Assembly: GCF_014863605.1 (NCBI RefSeq)
Contig: NZ_CP062252.1
Span: forward strand, 2,241,001-2,305,000
Reading direction: 5' to 3'
Source of the DNA: Pseudomonas allokribbensis
Lineage (GTDB): Bacteria; Pseudomonadota; Gammaproteobacteria; Pseudomonadales; Pseudomonadaceae
Length of the DNA stretch: 64,000 nucleotides
The translations under genes were made by a program, and so were the position numbers. A model generated the notes under the pieces. That model made no database searches and was not told the origin of the DNA. It saw nothing but the letters and a program-made list of their open reading frames with translations. Positions 5,776 through 58,995 of this stretch are shown in pieces (positions within the stretch are counted from its first letter, which is position 1; each line of letters starts with the position of its first letter).

Positions 5776-6518
5776 TGGCCGGGGACTGGATCAAATTTGA
5801 ACTCAGCACCATGGATAAGCCAGAGGTTTGCCAGATCGCGGAGTGGGCCAACATCGACCCTGATGCGGTAGTCGGCAAACTGATGCGTGTATGGGGTTGG
5901 TTCGATCAGCAAACCGAAACAGGTAACGCACCAAGCGTTACCAAAAAGTTACTCGACCGTCTCGTTGGTGTTAGCGACTTCTGCGAATACATGAAGCTGG
6001 TCGACTGGATGGTTGAGGTTGACGGCCTTATCAGCCTGCCTCATTTCGAGCGCCACAACGGCAAGACCGCCAAAAACAGGGCTTTGACTGCTCGCCGAGT
6101 TGCAGAACACAAATCTGGTAACGCAAAAGGTAACGCTGCTAGCGTTAGCGGTGCGTTACCTAGAGAAGAGAAGAATAAAGAACCTCTCTCTGCGCACGAG
6201 GTTGTCGATCCTCGCATGCCCAGTGAAATGACCCTCGACTGGCATCCTGATCAAAAGCTCCTCAAGACCTATTCGGTGCACTCAGGCGTAGCACCGAACC
6301 TGTTCACCGAAGAAGCTCGATGCGCGTTCACCGCTCACTACGAACCTCGCGGTCAGGTGAATACCCAGGCCGAATGGGTGCAGATGCTGGTGAAGTGGGT
6401 GCTGAATGACCGCAATCGCGCGGCGGCCTCGAATGTGAAGCCATTCCCGACTCGACCAAGTGCTGAGCCTGACTTCGATAGCACCGAGTGGGCCCGCGAC
6501 CTTGTGGTGAGCCCATGA
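5775..6518 (+). CDS. Phage replication protein O-like, DnaT-type C-terminus
   Basis: 247 aa. The N-terminal 90 residues (WIKFELSTMDKPEVCQIAE, then MRVWGWFDQQ and GLISLPHFERHNGK) match the DNA-binding replication proteins of Pseudomonas phages. After a low-complexity Ala/Gly/Lys linker, residues about 150-230 resemble the DnaT domain, ending DSTEWARDL. It would bind the phage origin and, with the P-like partner, recruit DnaB helicase. Start overlaps the previous stop; stop overlaps the next start (ATGA). Confidence 0.75.
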   Translation: MAGDWIKFELSTMDKPEVCQIAEWANIDPDAVVGKLMRVWGWFDQQTETGNAPSVTKKLLDRLVGVSDFCEYMKLVDWMVEVDGLISLPHFERHNGKTAKNRALTARRVAEHKSGNAKGNAASVSGALPREEKNKEPLSAHEVVDPRMPSEMTLDWHPDQKLLKTYSVHSGVAPNLFTEEARCAFTAHYEPRGQVNTQAEWVQMLVKWVLNDRNRAAASNVKPFPTRPSAEPDFDSTEWARDLVVSP

Positions 6519-51987: not shown

Positions 51988-52197
51988 TTAATGGAGCGTC
52001 GCAGCCCTGCGACTTTCTCCAATCCTGATTCTGTCGAGTGCCCGATTCAACGCATCCAGCGCATCAAGGAGTGCCTTGGCTTCGGCCTCGCGTCCGTCAC
52101 CCCAAAGGCGTTCCGCCATTTTGTTCAGGGTCTGGATAGAGCGTTCTATTTCGGCAGCGGTTGCTGCCGTTTTAATTTGCGGCTGATTCTTTGGCAT
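51988..52197 (-). CDS. Small helical protein downstream of rtcR
   Basis: 69 aa, Ala/Glu/Arg-rich helices (IERSIQTLNKMAERLWGDG, EAKALLDALDALNRALDR). Its start lies inside the last codons of rtcR (26-bp overlap), so it is probably co-translated. Not known in the rtc pathway as far as I can tell. Confidence 0.6.
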   Translation of the reverse strand: MPKNQPQIKTAATAAEIERSIQTLNKMAERLWGDGREAEAKALLDALDALNRALDRIRIGESRRAATLH

Positions 52198-53791
52198 CGG
52201 TCACCTGGCTCCATTCAATCCCAAACCGTCCCAGATACTTTCTCAATCGGTCCGCATCATTGGGCTGCGCCTTCGCCTGGCGGGACACGCCGAACAAGCG
52301 TCTGCCCGCATCCGACAAGCTATCTGACTCTCTGCACACTGCCAGTACGGCCTTCAATTGCAATCGGTCAAACAGGTCCATGCCTTCGGCGTCTCCCGGC
52401 AAATCGTCCGTCACTCCTGCCGGTTGCTTCAGTCCCCAGGCATAACGAAGTCGATCAATTTCTTCCTGCACTTGCGCTTCATCAATTCGGCCGCTGTCGG
52501 CCAGTGTTGCCATGCGTGTGATCGAGGCCGAAAGTTCGCGAAAGTTGCCCAGCCACGCCGCTTCGCGTGAACTGGCAAAGGCCAGATAGCGCCTGCGCGC
52601 TTCAAGGTTGAAACGTACCAACTGACCGTGCTCCCGTGCGTGGCGCTCGAGCTCGAAATCGATGTTGGGTTCGATGTCTTCTCGACGGCCGGCCAGGCCG
52701 GGCAGATCAAATGTCCAAAGATTTATTCGTGCGTACAGGTCTTCCCGGAACAGGCCTTCGGCGACCCGACTGCGCAGGTCGCGGTGAGTGCCGGCAATGA
52801 TCAGGAAGTCACTGTCGACTTCCTTGTCCGAGCCGAGCGGGAAGAAGCGCTTCTCTTCAATGGCCTTGAGCAGCATGGCTTGTTCGTCTGCGCCCAGTTC
52901 GCCGATTTCGTCAAGAAACAACATACCGCCGTCGGCGGCGCGTAGCAGGCCGTCGCGGGCATTTTGCGCGCCGGTGAAGGCGCCTTTGACGTGGCCGAAC
53001 AGGGCGGACATCGCGCCGTCGCCGCGCAGAGTGGCGCAGTTCACTTCAACGAAGCGTCCTTGCATGTGATGGCGGCCGCGCTTGAGCTCATAGATCCGTC
53101 GAGCGAGGAAGGATTTGCCGGCTCCGGTCGGGCCGATCAGCAACATCGGCGCTTTCGAGCGCACGGCGACGCGTTCGATCTGTTCGATGGAGCGGTTGAA
53201 CGCGGCGTTGCGTGTGGCGATGCCGGATTTGAGAAACTCCAGGCCTTCGAGGCGCTTGTTGGTAAAGCGAGTGGCAATGCGATCATAGCGCGACAGGTCG
53301 AGATCGATCAGCGCGTGAGTGCCGGTGGCCGGCTCATCTTCGCTCTTGCGGCGGGCGGGGGAGGTCTGGATCAGTCGTGCCGGCAGGTAGCGCGCCTCGG
53401 TCAGCAGGAACCAGCAGATTTGCGCCACATGGGTGCCGGTGGTGATGTGGACCAGATAGTCCTCGCGTTCGGTATCGAAGGTGTATTCGGTGGTGAAGTC
53501 GTGCAGCGCGCCATAAACCTCTTCGAAATCCCACGGGTTGCGCAGCGCCATCGGGTGCAGGCAGACCTCGGTTTCAGGCGATACCTGACGAATGTCTTGG
53601 CGAACTCGCTCGGCAAGGCTGGCGTCTCGGGCGTCTGTGCCGTGAATCAGTTCCAGTCGATGAATCAACACATCCGGCTGCTGGCACAGGCCCACGCTCG
53701 GGCGCCAGTGGTTCCAGCGATTGGCACCTTTGCCCACGCGATCGAGGGTTGCTCCGATAAAACCGATGGCAACAGTGCGCTTGTTTTGCAT
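52172..53791 (-). CDS. rtcR: RtcR, CARF-domain sigma54 activator of RNA repair
   Basis: 539 aa. N-terminal CARF-type sensor (about 1-185): VAIGFIGATLDR and HITTGTHVAQICWFLL. AAA+ domain: Walker A LLIGPTGAGKSF, sigma54-contact loop KGAFTGAQ, Walker B GGMLFLDEIGEL. A short C-terminal helix-turn-helix region follows (ALAVCRESDSLSDAGRRLFG). RtcR senses an RNA-end ligand through the CARF domain and activates the divergent rtc operon with sigma54 RNA polymerase. The divergent sigma54 promoter at 53939 fits. Confidence 0.95.
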   Translation of the reverse strand: MQNKRTVAIGFIGATLDRVGKGANRWNHWRPSVGLCQQPDVLIHRLELIHGTDARDASLAERVRQDIRQVSPETEVCLHPMALRNPWDFEEVYGALHDFTTEYTFDTEREDYLVHITTGTHVAQICWFLLTEARYLPARLIQTSPARRKSEDEPATGTHALIDLDLSRYDRIATRFTNKRLEGLEFLKSGIATRNAAFNRSIEQIERVAVRSKAPMLLIGPTGAGKSFLARRIYELKRGRHHMQGRFVEVNCATLRGDGAMSALFGHVKGAFTGAQNARDGLLRAADGGMLFLDEIGELGADEQAMLLKAIEEKRFFPLGSDKEVDSDFLIIAGTHRDLRSRVAEGLFREDLYARINLWTFDLPGLAGRREDIEPNIDFELERHAREHGQLVRFNLEARRRYLAFASSREAAWLGNFRELSASITRMATLADSGRIDEAQVQEEIDRLRYAWGLKQPAGVTDDLPGDAEGMDLFDRLQLKAVLAVCRESDSLSDAGRRLFGVSRQAKAQPNDADRLRKYLGRFGIEWSQVTDAKESAAN

Positions 53792-53938: not shown

Positions 53939-53954
53939 TGGCACGGCGGCTGCA
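53939..53954 (+). promoter_or_regulatory. Sigma54 promoter of the RNA-repair operon
   Basis: TGGCACGGCGGCTGCA: the -24 GG (53940-53941) and -12 GC (53952-53953) have the required spacing, and it matches the TGGCAC-N5-TTGCA consensus at all but one key position. Transcription would start near 53965, some 30 nt before rsr. Confidence 0.8.
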
Positions 53955-53996: not shown

Positions 53997-55544
53997 ATGG
54001 CCAATTTCAACCTCTTCAACACACAATCGAACAACCTGCCGGCGTGCGATACCGTGAATGCTTCAGGAGCTGCGGCCTATGCCTATACGCCCAAGCATCA
54101 ATTGGCCCAGTTGGCAGTGACCGGTTGTCTGAACCAGACCTTTTACGCAACGGCTGAAAACCAGCTGGATCAGGTGTTGAAGCTGGTGGCTGAACTGGAC
54201 AGCCGTTTTGTGGCCAACGCCGCAATATACGCCCGCCAAAAGGGCCATATGAAAGACATGCCGGCCTTGTTGTTGGCGGCGCTGACCGCCCAGCGTTCGG
54301 TGCTGGTACCGGAGGTGTTCGGAGGGATCGTCGACAGTGGCAAGATGCTGCGCAACTTCGTACAGATCCTGCGCAGTGGTGCCACGGGGCGCAAATCCCT
54401 CGGCTCGCAGCCCAAGCGGCTGGTGCAGAACTGGCTGAACAGCGCGACCGAGCGGCAACTGCTGCAAGCGTCGATCGGCAATCAGCCCTCGTTGGCGGAC
54501 GTGGTGAAAATGGTTCATCCCAAGCCTTCCGAAGTCTGGCGCGAAGCATTCTTCGCCTGGCTGATCGGCAAACCTGTGGATGTGCAGGCATTGCCGGAAC
54601 TGACCCGCGATCTGCTGGCGTTCCGCAGTGGTGCAAGTGATCAGGTGCCAGAGGTGCCTTTTCAATTGCTCGGCAATGAAACCCTGAGCAAAGAGCAGTG
54701 GGCTGCTCAAGCGCGAAACATGGGCTGGCAGGGGCTTCGCATCAACCTCAACACCCTGGCGCGCCATGGTGCTTTTGAAGTGCCGGGTTGCACCGAATAC
54801 GTGGCCGCGCGGTTGGCGGATCCCGAAGCAGTCGCCAGGGCGCGGGTGTACCCGTACCAGTTGCTGACGGCGTATCGAATGATCGGTGATGACATTCCGG
54901 CGCCGATACGCGAAGCGCTGCAAGATGCACTTGAGTTGTCGTTGAGCAATGTGCCGAAGATTGAAGGCGCGGTGGTGGTCTGCCCGGACGTCTCCGGCTC
55001 GATGGGCAGCCCGCTGACCGGATACCGGCAGGGCGCGACCACGGCGGTGCGCTGCATCGATGTGGCGGCGTTGATCGCGGCGGCGGTGTTGCGCAAGCAG
55101 CCGGCTGCACGAGTGATGCCGTTCGAGGTCGACGTGGTGGATATCACGCTCAACCCGCGGGACAGTGTGATCAGCAATGCCGAAAAGCTTGCGGGCATTT
55201 TCGGTGGTGGAACCTGCTGTTCGGCGCCGCTGAAGAAGCTGGCGGACAGCAAGGCCAAAGTCGATACGCTGATCATGGTGTCGGACAACGAATCCTGGAT
55301 CGATGCGCGACGTCGAGGGGCGAGTGAAACGATGCTGCAATGGGAGCGGATAAAGCGGCTCAACCCGCAAGCACGCCTGATCTGCATCGACCTTCAGCCG
55401 GGTTGGGCGACGCCGGCGGCGGATCGCGACGACATCCTGAATGTCGGCGGTTTCAGTGACGCGGTGTTTGATGTGATCGAGCAATTCACTGCCGGCCGGT
55501 ACGGCCCGCAGCACTGGGTCGAAGCGATCGAACGTATGGAATGA
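53997..55544 (+). CDS. rsr: Ro60-like RNA chaperone (TROVE + vWA)
   Basis: 515 aa. N-terminal TROVE ring of helical repeats (KHQLAQLAVTGCLNQTFYA, AELDSRFVANAAIYARQKG, KDMPALLLAALTAQRS). C-terminal von Willebrand A domain with MIDAS DVSGSMG (about residue 330) and VSDNESW. Ro proteins bind misfolded RNAs and Y RNAs; bacterial Rsr works with PNPase in RNA decay. The candidate Y RNAs lie directly downstream. Confidence 0.93.
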   Translation: MANFNLFNTQSNNLPACDTVNASGAAAYAYTPKHQLAQLAVTGCLNQTFYATAENQLDQVLKLVAELDSRFVANAAIYARQKGHMKDMPALLLAALTAQRSVLVPEVFGGIVDSGKMLRNFVQILRSGATGRKSLGSQPKRLVQNWLNSATERQLLQASIGNQPSLADVVKMVHPKPSEVWREAFFAWLIGKPVDVQALPELTRDLLAFRSGASDQVPEVPFQLLGNETLSKEQWAAQARNMGWQGLRINLNTLARHGAFEVPGCTEYVAARLADPEAVARARVYPYQLLTAYRMIGDDIPAPIREALQDALELSLSNVPKIEGAVVVCPDVSGSMGSPLTGYRQGATTAVRCIDVAALIAAAVLRKQPAARVMPFEVDVVDITLNPRDSVISNAEKLAGIFGGGTCCSAPLKKLADSKAKVDTLIMVSDNESWIDARRRGASETMLQWERIKRLNPQARLICIDLQPGWATPAADRDDILNVGGFSDAVFDVIEQFTAGRYGPQHWVEAIERME

Positions 55545-55561
55545 AGCTGAATAATTGATTT

Positions 55562-55631
55562 GTCACGGGCACTGAATGCCGATGGGACTACATCCAAGAC
55601 GTCTCATCAAACCCTTGTCAGTGCGCGTGAC
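55562..55631 (+). ncRNA. Candidate Y-like RNA 1 (hairpin)
   Basis: GTCACGGGCACTG (55562-55574) pairs with CAGTGCGCGTGAC (55619-55631) in a 13-position stem with one G-G mismatch. The loop begins with AATGCCGATGGGACTACATC, a motif repeated in the two downstream candidates. A terminal-stem hairpin next to rsr is what Ro-bound Y RNAs look like; identity is inferred. Confidence 0.55.
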
Positions 55632-55726
55632 GGCACGAATGCCGATGGCTGTACATCTGAGGCCGGTTAACCCCGGTGCGCGGCGACGCGCAACAGTCAT
55701 CAATCTTTGTCGTGCCACCTTTTTTT
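55632..55726 (+). ncRNA. Candidate Y-like RNA 2 with T-run
   Basis: GGCACGA (55632-55638) pairs with TCGTGCC (55710-55716), enclosing AATGCCGATGGCTGTACATC and GC-rich inner pairs; seven T follow (55720-55726). The terminal stem plus U-rich tail resembles a small RNA with its own end. Confidence 0.5.
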
Positions 55727-55729
55727 GAA

Positions 55730-55880
55730 TTTGCCCGGCGAATGCCGGTGGAACTACAGGACAGCGTGGGCACGGGTTCGAATCCCGTCGGCCGAAAGGT
55801 CGTAGCTCAGCGGTAGAGCGCGCTGCATGTTTCACCCAACCTTGTCGCTAAAGGCTGTGTAACAGCGCCGAATCATCGGC
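55730..55880 (+). ncRNA. yrlA: YrlA-type Y RNA with permuted tRNA module
   Basis: After AATGCCGGTGGAACTAC there is a T arm ACGGG-TTCGAAT-CCCGT (55772-55788), a 5-bp acceptor-like helix CGGCC/GGTCG capped by a GAAA tetraloop (55789-55802), then TA and a D arm GCTC-AGCGGTA-GAGC (55805-55819). The order T arm, acceptor, D arm is a circular permutation of tRNA, as known for YrlA RNAs. GCGCTG (55820-55825) pairs with CAGCGC (55863-55868), enclosing the remainder. Transcript ends are not defined by the sequence. Confidence 0.8.
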
Positions 55881-55899: not shown

Positions 55900-57129
55900 A
55901 TGATGAAACAACACACTTACCAACTGCTGGAAGTTGCCAACGGCAAGCCGATCAAACTCTGGACCGAAGGCGTCCCGGTGGAAAACGAAGCCCGCGAGCA
56001 ACTGATGAACACGGCGAAGATGCCCTTCATCTTCAAGCATCTCGCCGTGATGCCGGATGTCCACCTGGGCAAGGGCTCGACCATCGGCAGCGTGATCCCC
56101 ACTGTAGGCGCGATCATCCCGGCGGCGGTCGGAGTCGATATCGGATGCGGCATGATTGCTGCGCGAACGTCTCTGACTGCTGCTGATTTGCCGGACAACC
56201 TGCATGGCCTGCGCAGTGCCATCGAACAGGCGGTGCCCCATGGCCGCAGTTCGACCCGGTCGCGGCGTGACAAGGGCGCCTGGGACGATATTCCGGTGCA
56301 GGCCGATCAGGCGTGGGCGGCGCTGCATCCACGGTTCAAGGCAATCACCGACAAGTATCCGAAACTGGCCAACACCAACAACCGTGGGCATCTCGGAACA
56401 TTGGGCAGCGGCAATCACTTCATCGAAGTGTGTCTGGATGAGGCCAATCGGGTCTGGTTCATGTTGCACAGCGGTTCGCGTGGTGTCGGCAACGCCATCG
56501 GCAACCTGTTCATCCAGATGGCACAGGCGGATATGCGTCAGCACATCGCCAACCTGCCGGACCGTGACCTGGCGTACTTCGAAGAAGGCAGCCAGCACTT
56601 TGATGATTACGTTGAGGCGGTGGGCTGGGCGCAAGACTTCGCCAGGCAGAATCGCGCGTTGATGATGCAGGCCGTGATTCAGGCCACGCGGCAGATTATC
56701 CGCAAGCCATTCGAAGTGGCACTGGAGGCGGTGAACTGCCATCACAACTACGTGCAGAAAGAGCGGCATTTCGGCGAAGACATTCTGGTCACCCGCAAAG
56801 GTGCGGTATCGGCGAAGAAGGGTGAGTTGGGGATCATTCCAGGTTCGATGGGTGCCAAGAGCTTCATTGTGCGCGGTCTGGGCAACGAAGAATCGTTTTG
56901 CTCCTGCAGCCACGGTGCCGGTCGAACCATGAGCCGTACCAAGGCAAAAAACACCTTCACCGTTGAAGATCAGATTCGTGCCACCGCGCACGTTGAATGC
57001 CGCAAGGATGCTGCGGTGATCGATGAAATTCCGATGGCCTACAAGGACATCGACAAAGTCATGCACGCCCAGCGCGAGCTGGTGGAAGTGCTGCACACCT
57101 TGCGTCAGGTGGTGTGCGTCAAGGGATAG
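55900..57129 (+). CDS. rtcB: RtcB RNA ligase
   Basis: 409 aa, the length of E. coli RtcB. Metal/guanylylation residues are visible: GVDIGCGMIA (Cys ligand), TLGSGNHFIEV, MLHSGSRGVGNAIG, NCHHNYVQKE and SCSHGAGRTMSRT (His guanylylation site). Joins 2',3'-cyclic phosphate and 5'-OH RNA ends using GTP and Mn. Start at 55900 or the next Met at 55903. Confidence 0.96.
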   Translation: MMKQHTYQLLEVANGKPIKLWTEGVPVENEAREQLMNTAKMPFIFKHLAVMPDVHLGKGSTIGSVIPTVGAIIPAAVGVDIGCGMIAARTSLTAADLPDNLHGLRSAIEQAVPHGRSSTRSRRDKGAWDDIPVQADQAWAALHPRFKAITDKYPKLANTNNRGHLGTLGSGNHFIEVCLDEANRVWFMLHSGSRGVGNAIGNLFIQMAQADMRQHIANLPDRDLAYFEEGSQHFDDYVEAVGWAQDFARQNRALMMQAVIQATRQIIRKPFEVALEAVNCHHNYVQKERHFGEDILVTRKGAVSAKKGELGIIPGSMGAKSFIVRGLGNEESFCSCSHGAGRTMSRTKAKNTFTVEDQIRATAHVECRKDAAVIDEIPMAYKDIDKVMHAQRELVEVLHTLRQVVCVKG

Positions 57130-57166: not shown

Positions 57167-57955
57167 ATGAAATTCGAAGAACGTCACCCGCTGTGCAGCG
57201 CCATGCGCGCCCGGGTGCTGGAAGAGCTGGCGCGCATAGAGCGCGAGCGTAATGTCACGGTGCTGTATGCCTGCGAGTCGGGTAGCCGGGCCTGGGGATT
57301 CGCCTCGACCGACAGCGATTACGATGTGCGCTTTGTTTATGTGGAGAAACCCGAGTGGTTCGTCCAGGTCGACGCGCCTCGGGACGTGATCGAACGGCCG
57401 CTGGATGATGAACTCGACGTGAGTGGCTGGGAGCTGCGCAAAACCCTCGGGCTGTTGCGAAAGTCCAATCCGACCTTGCTGGAGTGGCTCGACTCACCGC
57501 TGGTGTACCGCAGCGAAACCGCGGCGGTTTCTCAACTGCGGGCGCTTGCCGAGGCGTTTTACAGCCCGCCGGCCGCGCGCAATCACTACCTGTCGATGGC
57601 GAAGAAGAACTTCCGTGGTTATTTGCAGGGCGACAGCGTGAGGTTCAAAAAGTACTTCTACGTATTGCGGCCGCTGCTGGCCGTGCGCTGGATCGACCAG
57701 GGCCGTGGCCGGCCGCCGATGACATTTGCCGATCTACTGAGCACCGTCGATGACCAGGCGTTGCTCGACGAAGTCGATGAGCTGCTCGCACTCAAGCGCA
57801 ATGCCGATGAGAGCGCCTATGGTCCTCGTCGCCCGGCGCTGCATCGATTCATCGCCGCTGAATTGGAGCGCGAAGTACCGACATTGGCCAGAACCCGGGA
57901 AGACTCCGGTCAGCTCGATCGATACCTCAGAGAAACCGTCGGGTTGTACGCATAA
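57167..57955 (+). CDS. Nucleotidyltransferase of the rtc operon (YcgL/COG3541-like)
   Basis: 262 aa from Met 57167 (AAGGA upstream). ACESGSRAWGFASTDSDYDV gives the GS...DxD active site of the polymerase-beta fold (about residues 35-55), with a further conserved WELRKTLGLLRKSNPTLLEW. Located 37 bp after rtcB and 8 bp before rtcA. By association it may add nucleotides to repaired or mature RNA 3' ends; the substrate is unknown. Confidence 0.85.
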   Translation: MKFEERHPLCSAMRARVLEELARIERERNVTVLYACESGSRAWGFASTDSDYDVRFVYVEKPEWFVQVDAPRDVIERPLDDELDVSGWELRKTLGLLRKSNPTLLEWLDSPLVYRSETAAVSQLRALAEAFYSPPAARNHYLSMAKKNFRGYLQGDSVRFKKYFYVLRPLLAVRWIDQGRGRPPMTFADLLSTVDDQALLDEVDELLALKRNADESAYGPRRPALHRFIAAELEREVPTLARTREDSGQLDRYLRETVGLYA

Positions 57956-57963
57956 GGAAGAAA

Positions 57964-58995
57964 ATGAAACAGGACGTGATTGAACTGGACGGCGCTATTG
58001 GTGGCGGCCAGGTGTTGCGCAGTGCCTTGAGCCTGTCGATGGTGACGGGACGGGCATTTCGCATCGAACGGATTCGTGCCAAACGTAGCCGTCCGGGTTT
58101 GTTGCGCCAGCACCTGACCGCCGTGATGGCGGCGGCACAGGTCTGCGGTGCACGGACTCAAGGCGCAGAGTTGGGGTCGCAAGCGTTGAGCTTCGAGCCC
58201 GGACCGATTCGCGGCGGCGAATACCGCTTTGCCATTGGTACCGCCGGCAGTTGCACACTGGTGTTGCAGACCTTGCTGCCCGCGTTGTTGCGGGCGCCGC
58301 AAGCCAGTCGTGTATGGATCAGTGGTGGTACCCATAATCCGCTGGCGCCACCGACCGATTTCCTCACCCGCAGCTGGTTGCCGTTGTTGCGACGCATGGG
58401 GGCCGAGGTTGATCTGAAGCTGCTTCGTCATGGATTCGTTCCTGCGGGTGGTGGCGAAATCGAGGCCACGGTGCAGCCGTCGAAACTGTCGGCGTTGCAT
58501 GTGTGCGATCGCGGCTCGCCGCTTTCACAAAAGGCGTTTGCGCTGACGGCAGGTCTCGCTTCGGACATCGCCAGACGTGAGCTTGACCGTGTGGCCCGAC
58601 GTTTGAATATGCCGCCAGCGACGATGAATGCGATCAGCCTTGATCCGGAGTGCGGGCCGGGTAACGTGCTGTTGCTGGAATATGCGTTTGAACACGTCAC
58701 GGAAGTATTCAGCGCGTTTGGCCAGGCTTCACTGCGCGCAGAGACCGTTGCGGACGTTGCGGTCAATCAGGCAGACGCTTGGTTGCGCAGTGGTGCGGCG
58801 GTGGCTGAACATCTGGCCGATCAATTGTTGTTGCCGATGGCGCTGGCCGGATCTGGCTCATTTACGACGCCCGCGATGACCGAGCATCTGCAGAGTAACG
58901 TCGCCGTGATCGAGCGCTTTTTGCCAGTCACCATTGAGTGCCGTGAAGAAAGCACCGATCGGTTGAGGATAGAAGTCAGCCCCCGAGACCAATAG
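57964..58995 (+). CDS. rtcA: RtcA RNA 3'-terminal phosphate cyclase
   Basis: 343 aa. DGAIGGGQVLRSALSLSMVT at the N-terminus, RSRPGLLRQHLTAV, RHGFVPAGGGEIEATV and ADQLLLPMALAGSGSFTT are RtcA landmarks; the catalytic His (E. coli His309) should lie in the TTPAMTEHLQSN segment. Converts 3'-phosphate to 2',3'-cyclic phosphate with ATP. Last gene of the operon. Confidence 0.95.
   Translation: MKQDVIELDGAIGGGQVLRSALSLSMVTGRAFRIERIRAKRSRPGLLRQHLTAVMAAAQVCGARTQGAELGSQALSFEPGPIRGGEYRFAIGTAGSCTLVLQTLLPALLRAPQASRVWISGGTHNPLAPPTDFLTRSWLPLLRRMGAEVDLKLLRHGFVPAGGGEIEATVQPSKLSALHVCDRGSPLSQKAFALTAGLASDIARRELDRVARRLNMPPATMNAISLDPECGPGNVLLLEYAFEHVTEVFSAFGQASLRAETVADVAVNQADAWLRSGAAVAEHLADQLLLPMALAGSGSFTTPAMTEHLQSNVAVIERFLPVTIECREESTDRLRIEVSPRDQ

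Follow-up and report, generated by a model that had tools for sequence, protein, structure and literature searches.

A YrlA-type Y RNA with a circularly permuted tRNA module in a three-Y-RNA array between rsr and rtcB of Pseudomonas allokribbensis

The third of three Y RNAs that lie in tandem between rsr and rtcB of Pseudomonas allokribbensis, here called Y-E, belongs genuinely to the YrlA type, a known one, and is new for this genome; it carries a complete tRNA core in circularly permuted order. A preliminary description of the window (the whole stretch of 64,000 nucleotides that was analysed) had already read a T arm, a GNRA-capped helix and a D arm in that order, and this is seen directly in the sequence. 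It had also held that the module is no ordinary tRNA and has no anticodon arm; ARAGORN called no tRNA over the whole window, and the permuted order was borne out. The RNA itself, however, occupies ~55735-55854 rather than 55730-55880. The proposed YrlA-type identity is supported by a covariance search (cmscan), in which Y-E aligned with positions 1-114 of 114 of the RF02553 model at 69.2 bits (E 9.1e-14 in 64 kb), exceeding the gathering score of 69 by 0.2 bits, and it is the sole match to this family at E 0.001 or better in the 6.57-Mb genome. Because of this E-value, the single match in the genome and the compensatory changes found in relatives, Y-E is not a product of chance.

The repair locus and its promoter

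The genome is a single contig, and the genes of the locus, identified by Pfam and NCBIfam, are arranged as rtcR on the minus strand followed by rsr, rtcB, rlaP and rtcA, all on the plus strand (Table 1). The placement of Y-E in an rsr-rtcBA locus was thus correct, with rsr (TROVE and Ro60 vWA domains) on its 5' side and rtcB on its 3' side. Rsr scores 91 bits against NF041674, far below the cut-off of 900, and is thus divergent; among the best 80 of 288 relatives, the nearest proteins are those of Pseudomonas sputi (94%) and P. pharyngis (93%), which would place the host in the fluorescens/koreensis neighbourhood of the genus. The sigma54-type motif upstream of rsr, TGGCACGGCGGCTGCA (also written TGGCACggcggCTGCA), is widely shared. 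Of the rsr loci with enough upstream DNA, 38 of 44 from Pseudomonas and 30 of 34 others have TGGCRC-N5-YTGC in the 200 nt before rsr, and the loci that lack it contain near variants in all six Pseudomonas cases and in one of the four others, with none in the other three. The three paralogous Y RNAs would be co-transcribed from this RtcR/sigma54 promoter with rsr and rtcB-rlaP-rtcA.

Table 1. Features of the rtcR-rsr-rtcB-rlaP-rtcA locus, in window coordinates
Feature	Position	Strand	Evidence or remark
rtcR, CARF-type sigma54 activator of the RNA-repair operon, divergent from rsr	52172..53791	-	PF06956 280.9 bits; NF038308 RNA_repair_RtcR 840 bits, cut-off 650 exceeded
sigma54-type promoter motif	53939..53954	+	58 nt before rsr start
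rsr, bacterial Ro60 orthologue	53997..55544	+	PF25045 vWA_Ro60 and PF05731 TROVE; Deinococcus Rsr structure 2nvo, E 5e-25
Y-A, short headless two-stem Y RNA; outer stem GUCACG.GCACUGA/UCAGUGC.CGUGAC	55562..55631	+	fold z -2.62
Y-A inner stem GAUGGGAC/GUCUCAUC, 12-nt loop starting UACAUC	within 55562..55631	+	
Y-B, YrlB-like Y RNA	55632..55716	+	fold z -2.34
Y-B head, T-arm-like hairpin	55663-55676	+	loop degenerate here
Y-B head, GNRA-capped helix	55677-55692	+	
Seven-T run just 3' of the Y-B closing stem; possible 3' end signal, weak	55720..55726	+	read in sequence
Y-E, YrlA-type Y RNA with circularly permuted tRNA module, between rsr and rtcB	55735..55854	+	RF02553; covariation
Y-E closing stem, Rsr-type; 5' strand GGCGA	55737..55741; 3' strand 55845-55849	+	RF02553 alignment, relatives
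Y-E second Y stem; 5' strand GGUGGAAC	55747..55754; 3' strand 55829-55836	+	99.5% of cells paired (23 sequences), 7/8 pairs invariant
Y-E anticodon-stem equivalent; 3' side (39-43) CAGCG, partner (27-31) CGCTG	55762..55766; partner 55821-55825	+	90.9% of cells paired, 5/5 pairs changed on both sides
Y-E 5-nt variable loop (44-48) TGGGC	55767-55771	+	read in sequence
Y-E T arm ACGGG-TTCGAAT-CCCGT, loop UUCGAAU	55772..55788	+	100% paired; double change in 1/5 pairs
Y-E acceptor-like helix CGGCC-GAAA-GGTCG, 5 bp, sealed by a GAAA tetraloop	55789..55802	+	double changes in 4/5 pairs, 86.0% of cells paired
Y-E TA = U8-A9	55803-55804	+	read in sequence
Y-E D arm GCTC-AGCGGTA-GAGC, loop AGCGGUA with G18-G19; G15 = 55810, partner C48 = 55771	55805..55819	+	D stem invariant
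Y-E G26	55820	+	read in sequence
rtcB, RNA ligase	55900..57129	+	PF01139 444 bits
rlaP, RNA-repair nucleotidyltransferase	57167..57955	+	PF10127 325.5 bits
rtcA, RNA 3'-phosphate cyclase	57964..58995	+	PF01137 265 bits; TIGR03399 375.6 bits, above cut-off

The run of seven T after Y-B is graded weak as an end signal because a consensus terminator scan, which reported no terminator in the rsr-rtcB spacer, did not report it. An origin of the spacer from phage or plasmid was rejected: there was no phage match, and two plasmid records of one species matched over 47 nt only. The T run, and the fact that the three RNAs share the strand of rsr and rtcB and are placed between these genes, could speak for a role in cis, in which the hairpins would be processing sites, spacers or attenuators setting the expression of rtcB relative to rsr, and the tRNA fold would recruit RNase P or RNase Z. 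We regard such a role as improbable, since the terminator scan was negative, the Rsr-type motif is kept in all three RNAs, the acceptor end of Y-E is sealed and offers no CCA to RNase Z/P, and the number of Y units between the same two genes ranges from 2 to 5 in Pseudomonas.

Structure of the three RNAs by comparison

In tRNA numbering, which is our own assignment, the module of Y-E forms a complete tRNA core that is opened at the anticodon loop, and its open end passes through two linkers into the Y stems. Plain folding of a 131-nt stretch gave a signal no better than shuffles (z = -0.06), and the structure therefore rests on comparison. We aligned 23 E-class sequences, namely the window, L022 and 21 distinct script-classed E copies from the named set (the script missed some E copies, and the named E rows found later number 26). 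Across this alignment, 95.6% of 769 cells are paired, against only 35-48% in slid controls; both sides change in 11 of 34 pairs (33 helical pairs and 15-48, the 11 being ten helical pairs and 15-48); and there are 63 doubly changed cells against 19.2 in shuffles, which ignore relatedness. The compensatory stem changes that the preliminary description expected across related Pseudomonas are thus present. The number of pair types is not in excess of shuffles, 296 of 500 reaching the same value, and the D stem and the second Y stem hardly vary and therefore say little on covariation. The closing stem GCGAAUGC...CUUGUCGC aligns with the RF02553 model and has the Y-RNA consensus bases, GCGAAUGC and UUGUCGC being invariant in the 23 sequences. 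An enclosing helix, proposed as GCGCTG/CAGCGC, does exist, but as CAGCG/CGCTG, with 5 bp (6 with U-G).

A decaying tRNA relic without function would account for the C-A outermost pair of the closing stem, for the score just above threshold and for the deletions in sister species described below. We consider this highly improbable, because the anticodon-like and acceptor-like helices show compensatory changes in the 23 sequences, in which the D stem is also invariant and the T stem fully paired.

Y-E was the single Y RNA noticed in the spacer at the outset; it is real, but two more, at 55562-55631 and 55632-55716, had been missed. All three contain GAAUGC, CUACA or GUACA, and UUGUC. For Y-A, an alignment of the window and 25 distinct script-classed A copies (more divergent copies surfaced later in a model search) is 97.4% paired, with double changes in 7 of 16 pairs and 43 such cells against 10 in shuffles; its number of pair types is not in excess and is reached by 132 of 500 shuffles. 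No Rfam family matches Y-A at its gathering score, the best being a microRNA match of 20.9 bits (gathering 107). Y-B was aligned as the window and 35 of 42 distinct B copies, seven being excluded, and these 36 sequences are 94.0% paired, with double changes in 6 of 26 pairs and 54 such cells against 16.7 in shuffles; its 11 pair types are reached or exceeded by every shuffle (500/500). The Y-B head in the window reads CCGG-UUAACC-CCGG and UGCGCG-GCGA-CGCGCA. In the protegens group the head is a T arm with a consensus loop, and in P. alcaliphila and kin (the mendocina group) a GNRA-capped helix is present besides the T arm; the Y-B head may thus be viewed as half a tRNA, the top part only, akin to a minihelix.

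Covariance models built from Y-A (R1) and Y-B (R2) were run on 87 sources, made up of 80 bacterial and six viral rsr loci together with the window, and returned 124 and 164 matches, respectively, all on the plus strand, i.e. that of rsr. In the bacterial loci all matches are downstream of rsr, the strong ones in the spacer and the weak ones including mimic units. In three loci (L018, L087, L096) the Y-A slot, the first of the spacer, is taken not by a headless Y-A but by a longer RNA that includes the T-arm-like hairpin GCAGG-UUCRAGC-CCUGC. The viral-contig Rsr relatives (L136-L141) have 43-50% identity, and weak Y-A-like matches lie upstream of rsr in four of these loci (L136, L137, L138, L139).

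The tertiary pair 15-48 (Levitt pair), a contact expected of an L-shaped tRNA, is not demanded by our parser; A14, A21, GG and the TTCRA T loop are demanded and are therefore no evidence. It was scored in 102 heads from the named set, the window and L022, after removal of 31 that lacked an acceptor helix, 3 whose D stem was weak, 7 duplicates and 8 viral heads. The pair is G-C in 68, A-U in 28 and neither in 6, so that 96 of 102 heads match, whereas 10,000 shuffles had a mean of 56 matches and a maximum of 72; under a laxer acceptor filter, which admits koreensis-type D copies, 93 of 103 heads match. The covariation is hardly independent of phylogeny, and independent switches are few: along the Rsr tree, 27 E-class rows provide three independent pairs that differ at 15, two of them concordant and one unchanged at 48 (sign test, p 0.5, underpowered).

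Heads were also compared with 23 isoacceptors from 30 loci of the host genome, which has 69 tRNA matches; 22 tRNAs were parsed and 3 were not. The idea that the heads copy one host tRNA was rejected, as the best-matching tRNAs are spread among the Trp, Arg, His, Gly and Lys types and, for the printed heads, the best isoacceptor leads the next by 1-3 points; as far as can be told from these sequences, no specific host tRNA appears to be mimicked.

Turnover of the mimics and a second type of repair operon

Among 199 genomes sampled from the genus of the window, the window included, 21 have rsr, and in all 21 rsr is followed by at least two Y units and then rtcB. In a scan with stricter filters, RF02553 matches at E 0.001 or better occur in 20 of the 21, and 11 of these 20 exceed the gathering score; the exception is G016, whose Rsr matches that of P. 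pharyngis. The longest unit order is A-B-C-D-E, and two arrays of the named set (L079, L129) read A-B-A-B-E. Script-parsed counts of full tRNA heads in 46 Pseudomonas loci (45 named ones, which belong to the best 80 of 288 relatives and are no random sample, and the window) gave none in 4, one in 23, two in 3 and three in 16, with one zero-count locus, L059, having a D-class unit whose D arm the parser rejected; in 35 other loci of those 80 the counts were none in 2, one in 28, two in 4 and three in 1, and L134, among the loci counted, extends for 228 nt only 3' of rsr. Chen et al. reportedly found, in 2014, at least one tRNA-like Y RNA per species.

In the Rsr tree the window groups with P. 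pharyngis and P. sputi (support 100/96), and the koreensis group is adjacent. Both sister species have lost Y-E at the locus, where a 5' stub is left and the head and the 3' half are gone, and have kept Y-A and Y-B; Pseudomonas sp. Irchel s3h14 has a separate deletion of the mimic with a stub of its own; and nine koreensis-type genomes retain a degenerate D copy that has lost U8-A9, a copy that P. pharyngis and P. sputi have not kept either. Loss of the mimic is thus compatible with retention of Y-A, Y-B, rsr and rtcB (whole-genome absence applying to G016 only), and since the closest sisters have lost it, Y-E is not obligatory for the operon.

Several arrays have features of their own. The class C heads of P. 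alcaliphila and kin (L084, ~5780-5895) have a 7-bp acceptor-like helix with a G-U at the place of 3-70, and a class-C head of Labrys (L099), also with a 7-bp helix and G-U, retains ACCA and a 4-nt spacer, like a fused tRNA-tRNA junction. In one genome (G108; L022/L023) rsr was matched as two overlapping pieces, one with an in-frame stop, and the five-unit Y array seems intact.

Weak RF02553 hits in genomes without rsr were considered as Y RNAs and, for the ten loci that were read, rejected: seven are tandem tRNA genes (L043, L045, L047, L048, L050-L052), which as ordinary genes match at ~30-43 bits, and three are cloverleafs in slipin operons. A tRNA-tRNA junction shows its arms in the order of a permuted tRNA, for which reason any sub-threshold YrlA hit has to be checked for tandem tRNAs. 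In these last three loci, two tandem cloverleafs without a normal anticodon loop lie between a divergent rtcR and an SPFH/Band-7 gene (slipin-like; one protein scanned), which is followed by rtcB. A long slipin occurs in 19 of 398 genomes of the genus, and none of the 12 slipin genomes among the first 199 is one of the 21 with rsr. The cloverleaf pair is present in 6 of the 19 slipin loci, each with a divergent rtcR (L173, 1126-1266; L177, 1118-1259; L178, L179, L220 and L221 on the reverse strand, ~1072-1237 in reversed coordinates), and ARAGORN found no pair in the remaining 13. The twelve RNAs amount to ten distinct ones, since L178 and L220 are identical. Their anticodon-position stem is predicted to have 5-7 bp and a loop of 3-4 nt, UUCG in five; one of the twelve folds otherwise as a whole molecule, with no cloverleaf, and the Rfam tRNA model recognises the two RNAs of L173 and a single one of the L178 pair. 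By eye, a TGGCAC-N5-TCGC motif, missed by the pattern search, lies ~130 nt upstream in all six pair-bearing loci. These six and two others (L174, L175) also have, by eye, a conserved and apparently structured leader before the slipin, ~110 nt after the sigma54-like motif and found with or without the tRNA-like pair; an Rfam scan of five loci gave no match except tRNA. In another genus (L208, 2310-2524), rtcR precedes a tandem of three tRNA-like RNAs, whose loops fold to 5, 6 and 9 nt and the third of which has a CCA end, and then a gene that looks like slipin.

The portions available of PMC9650030, PMC11090510, PMC7652931 and PMC7824862, from the literature on slipin with rtcB and on tRNA-like RNAs with rtcR or rtcB, make no mention of such RNAs, which does not imply their absence from print. 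Tentatively, and at rather less than even odds, RtcR-controlled RNA-repair operons may recurrently carry tRNA mimics without a cuttable anticodon loop, in two unrelated formats, as bait or sensors for tRNA-binding or tRNA-damaging enzymes, with copies specialising. The first format would be that of the rsr operons, where the heads of Y RNAs would be graded from none through the T arm or minihelix of Y-B to between one and three complete permuted tRNAs, with the opening at the very site that anticodon nucleases cut and RtcB seals; the second would be that of the slipin operons without rsr, in which cloverleafs with an anticodon loop reduced to 3-4 nt stand free in tandem. Expression of the slipin cloverleafs would point to tRNA mimicry as a feature of the repair operon and not of Ro.

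Proposed function and comparison with known systems

The reading that we consider probable is that the Y RNAs are ligands of Rsr, induced through RtcR and sigma54, whose heads would tether Rsr to tRNA-elbow-binding or PNPase-type partners. The preliminary description had likewise suggested that the RNA may recruit tRNA-modifying or repair factors to Ro. From Y-RNA homology, the closing stem that the three RNAs have in common, with its GAAUGC...(C/G)UACA...UUGUC bases, is predicted to be the Rsr-binding part of each, and the other end would be what differs: nothing in Y-A, a T-arm-like hairpin and capped helix in Y-B, and a whole tRNA core in Y-E, with the anticodon loop opened and the acceptor end sealed. 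Y-E cannot be charged and has no anticodon loop to cut, but would show a tRNA elbow. With Rsr on the stem and an elbow-binding partner on the head (for Salmonella YrlA, tRNA-modifying enzymes and PNPase are the described partners), the tether could guide Rsr to RNA that is damaged or structured once the operon has been induced by cleaved tRNAs. We prefer the tether since all three RNAs share the Rsr-type motif and differ only in the head.

Known anticodon nucleases read the anticodon loop, and it is this loop that the mimic lacks, which weighs against a decoy, in which the tRNA-shaped head would compete with real tRNAs for an anticodon nuclease or another tRNA-damaging enzyme that docks on the elbow and finds no anticodon loop to cut. 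Furthermore, a decoy would have no need to be attached to Rsr, and arrays without any full mimic persist. The open anticodon loop of the Y-E head, the multiple copies per array and the tandem cloverleafs without a 7-nt anticodon loop in some RtcR operons that lack rsr would all suit a decoy; we nevertheless find it unlikely. The available part of one Salmonella study proposes it for YrlA, itself no substrate of the nuclease (PMC7790460).

Pseudomonas offers a natural series, with species that carry from zero to three mimics in a single operon, a clean loss in sister species, and headless and half-headed paralogues beside the full mimic, so that the function of the head can be tested by comparison and, in laboratory strains, by deletion. 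What might surprise a specialist is the array, together with the losses and the slipin parallel.

As far as the available parts of the sources go, the Salmonella operon has the order rsr-yrlB-yrlA-rtcB-rtcA (PMC9879122) and cleaved tRNAs induce its expression (PMC7790460); DusA and TruB act on YrlA, whose stem binds Rsr and whose tRNA-like domain binds PNPase (PMC8394870), and PNPase is bound by Rsr and YrlA (PMC9879122). Y-E resembles Salmonella-type YrlA (RF02553) in that an Rsr-type stem bears the T arm, the capped acceptor-like helix and the D arm in permuted order, and in its location in an rsr-rtcBA operon adjoining rtcR (PMC7790460, in part, for Salmonella). It differs in being the third of three Y RNAs, whereas YrlA is the second of two (PMC9879122, likewise in part), in its locus, which has a divergent Rsr and a gene for RlaP, and in that relatives of the window have up to three mimics per array. 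Y-B, like YrlB (RF02565), aligns with the whole model and directly precedes a YrlA-type RNA; unlike YrlB, it scores 19.5 bits against a gathering score of 97, is thus no member by score and only YrlB-like, and has a head made of a T-arm-like hairpin and a GNRA-capped helix. Tandem tRNA genes share with Y-E the reading of T arm, acceptor, acceptor and D arm at their junction, but Y-E is flanked by Y stems, has a GAAA cap that closes the acceptor end, and is not called as a tRNA gene. Finally, the Deinococcus Y RNA and the Rsr-Y RNA-PNPase complex, RYPER, to judge from the portions of the sources available, have in common with the window an Rsr orthologue (2nvo) and the logic of a tether; the window differs from them in operon context and in its Y RNA array, and a contact with PNPase is here put forward as a proposal.
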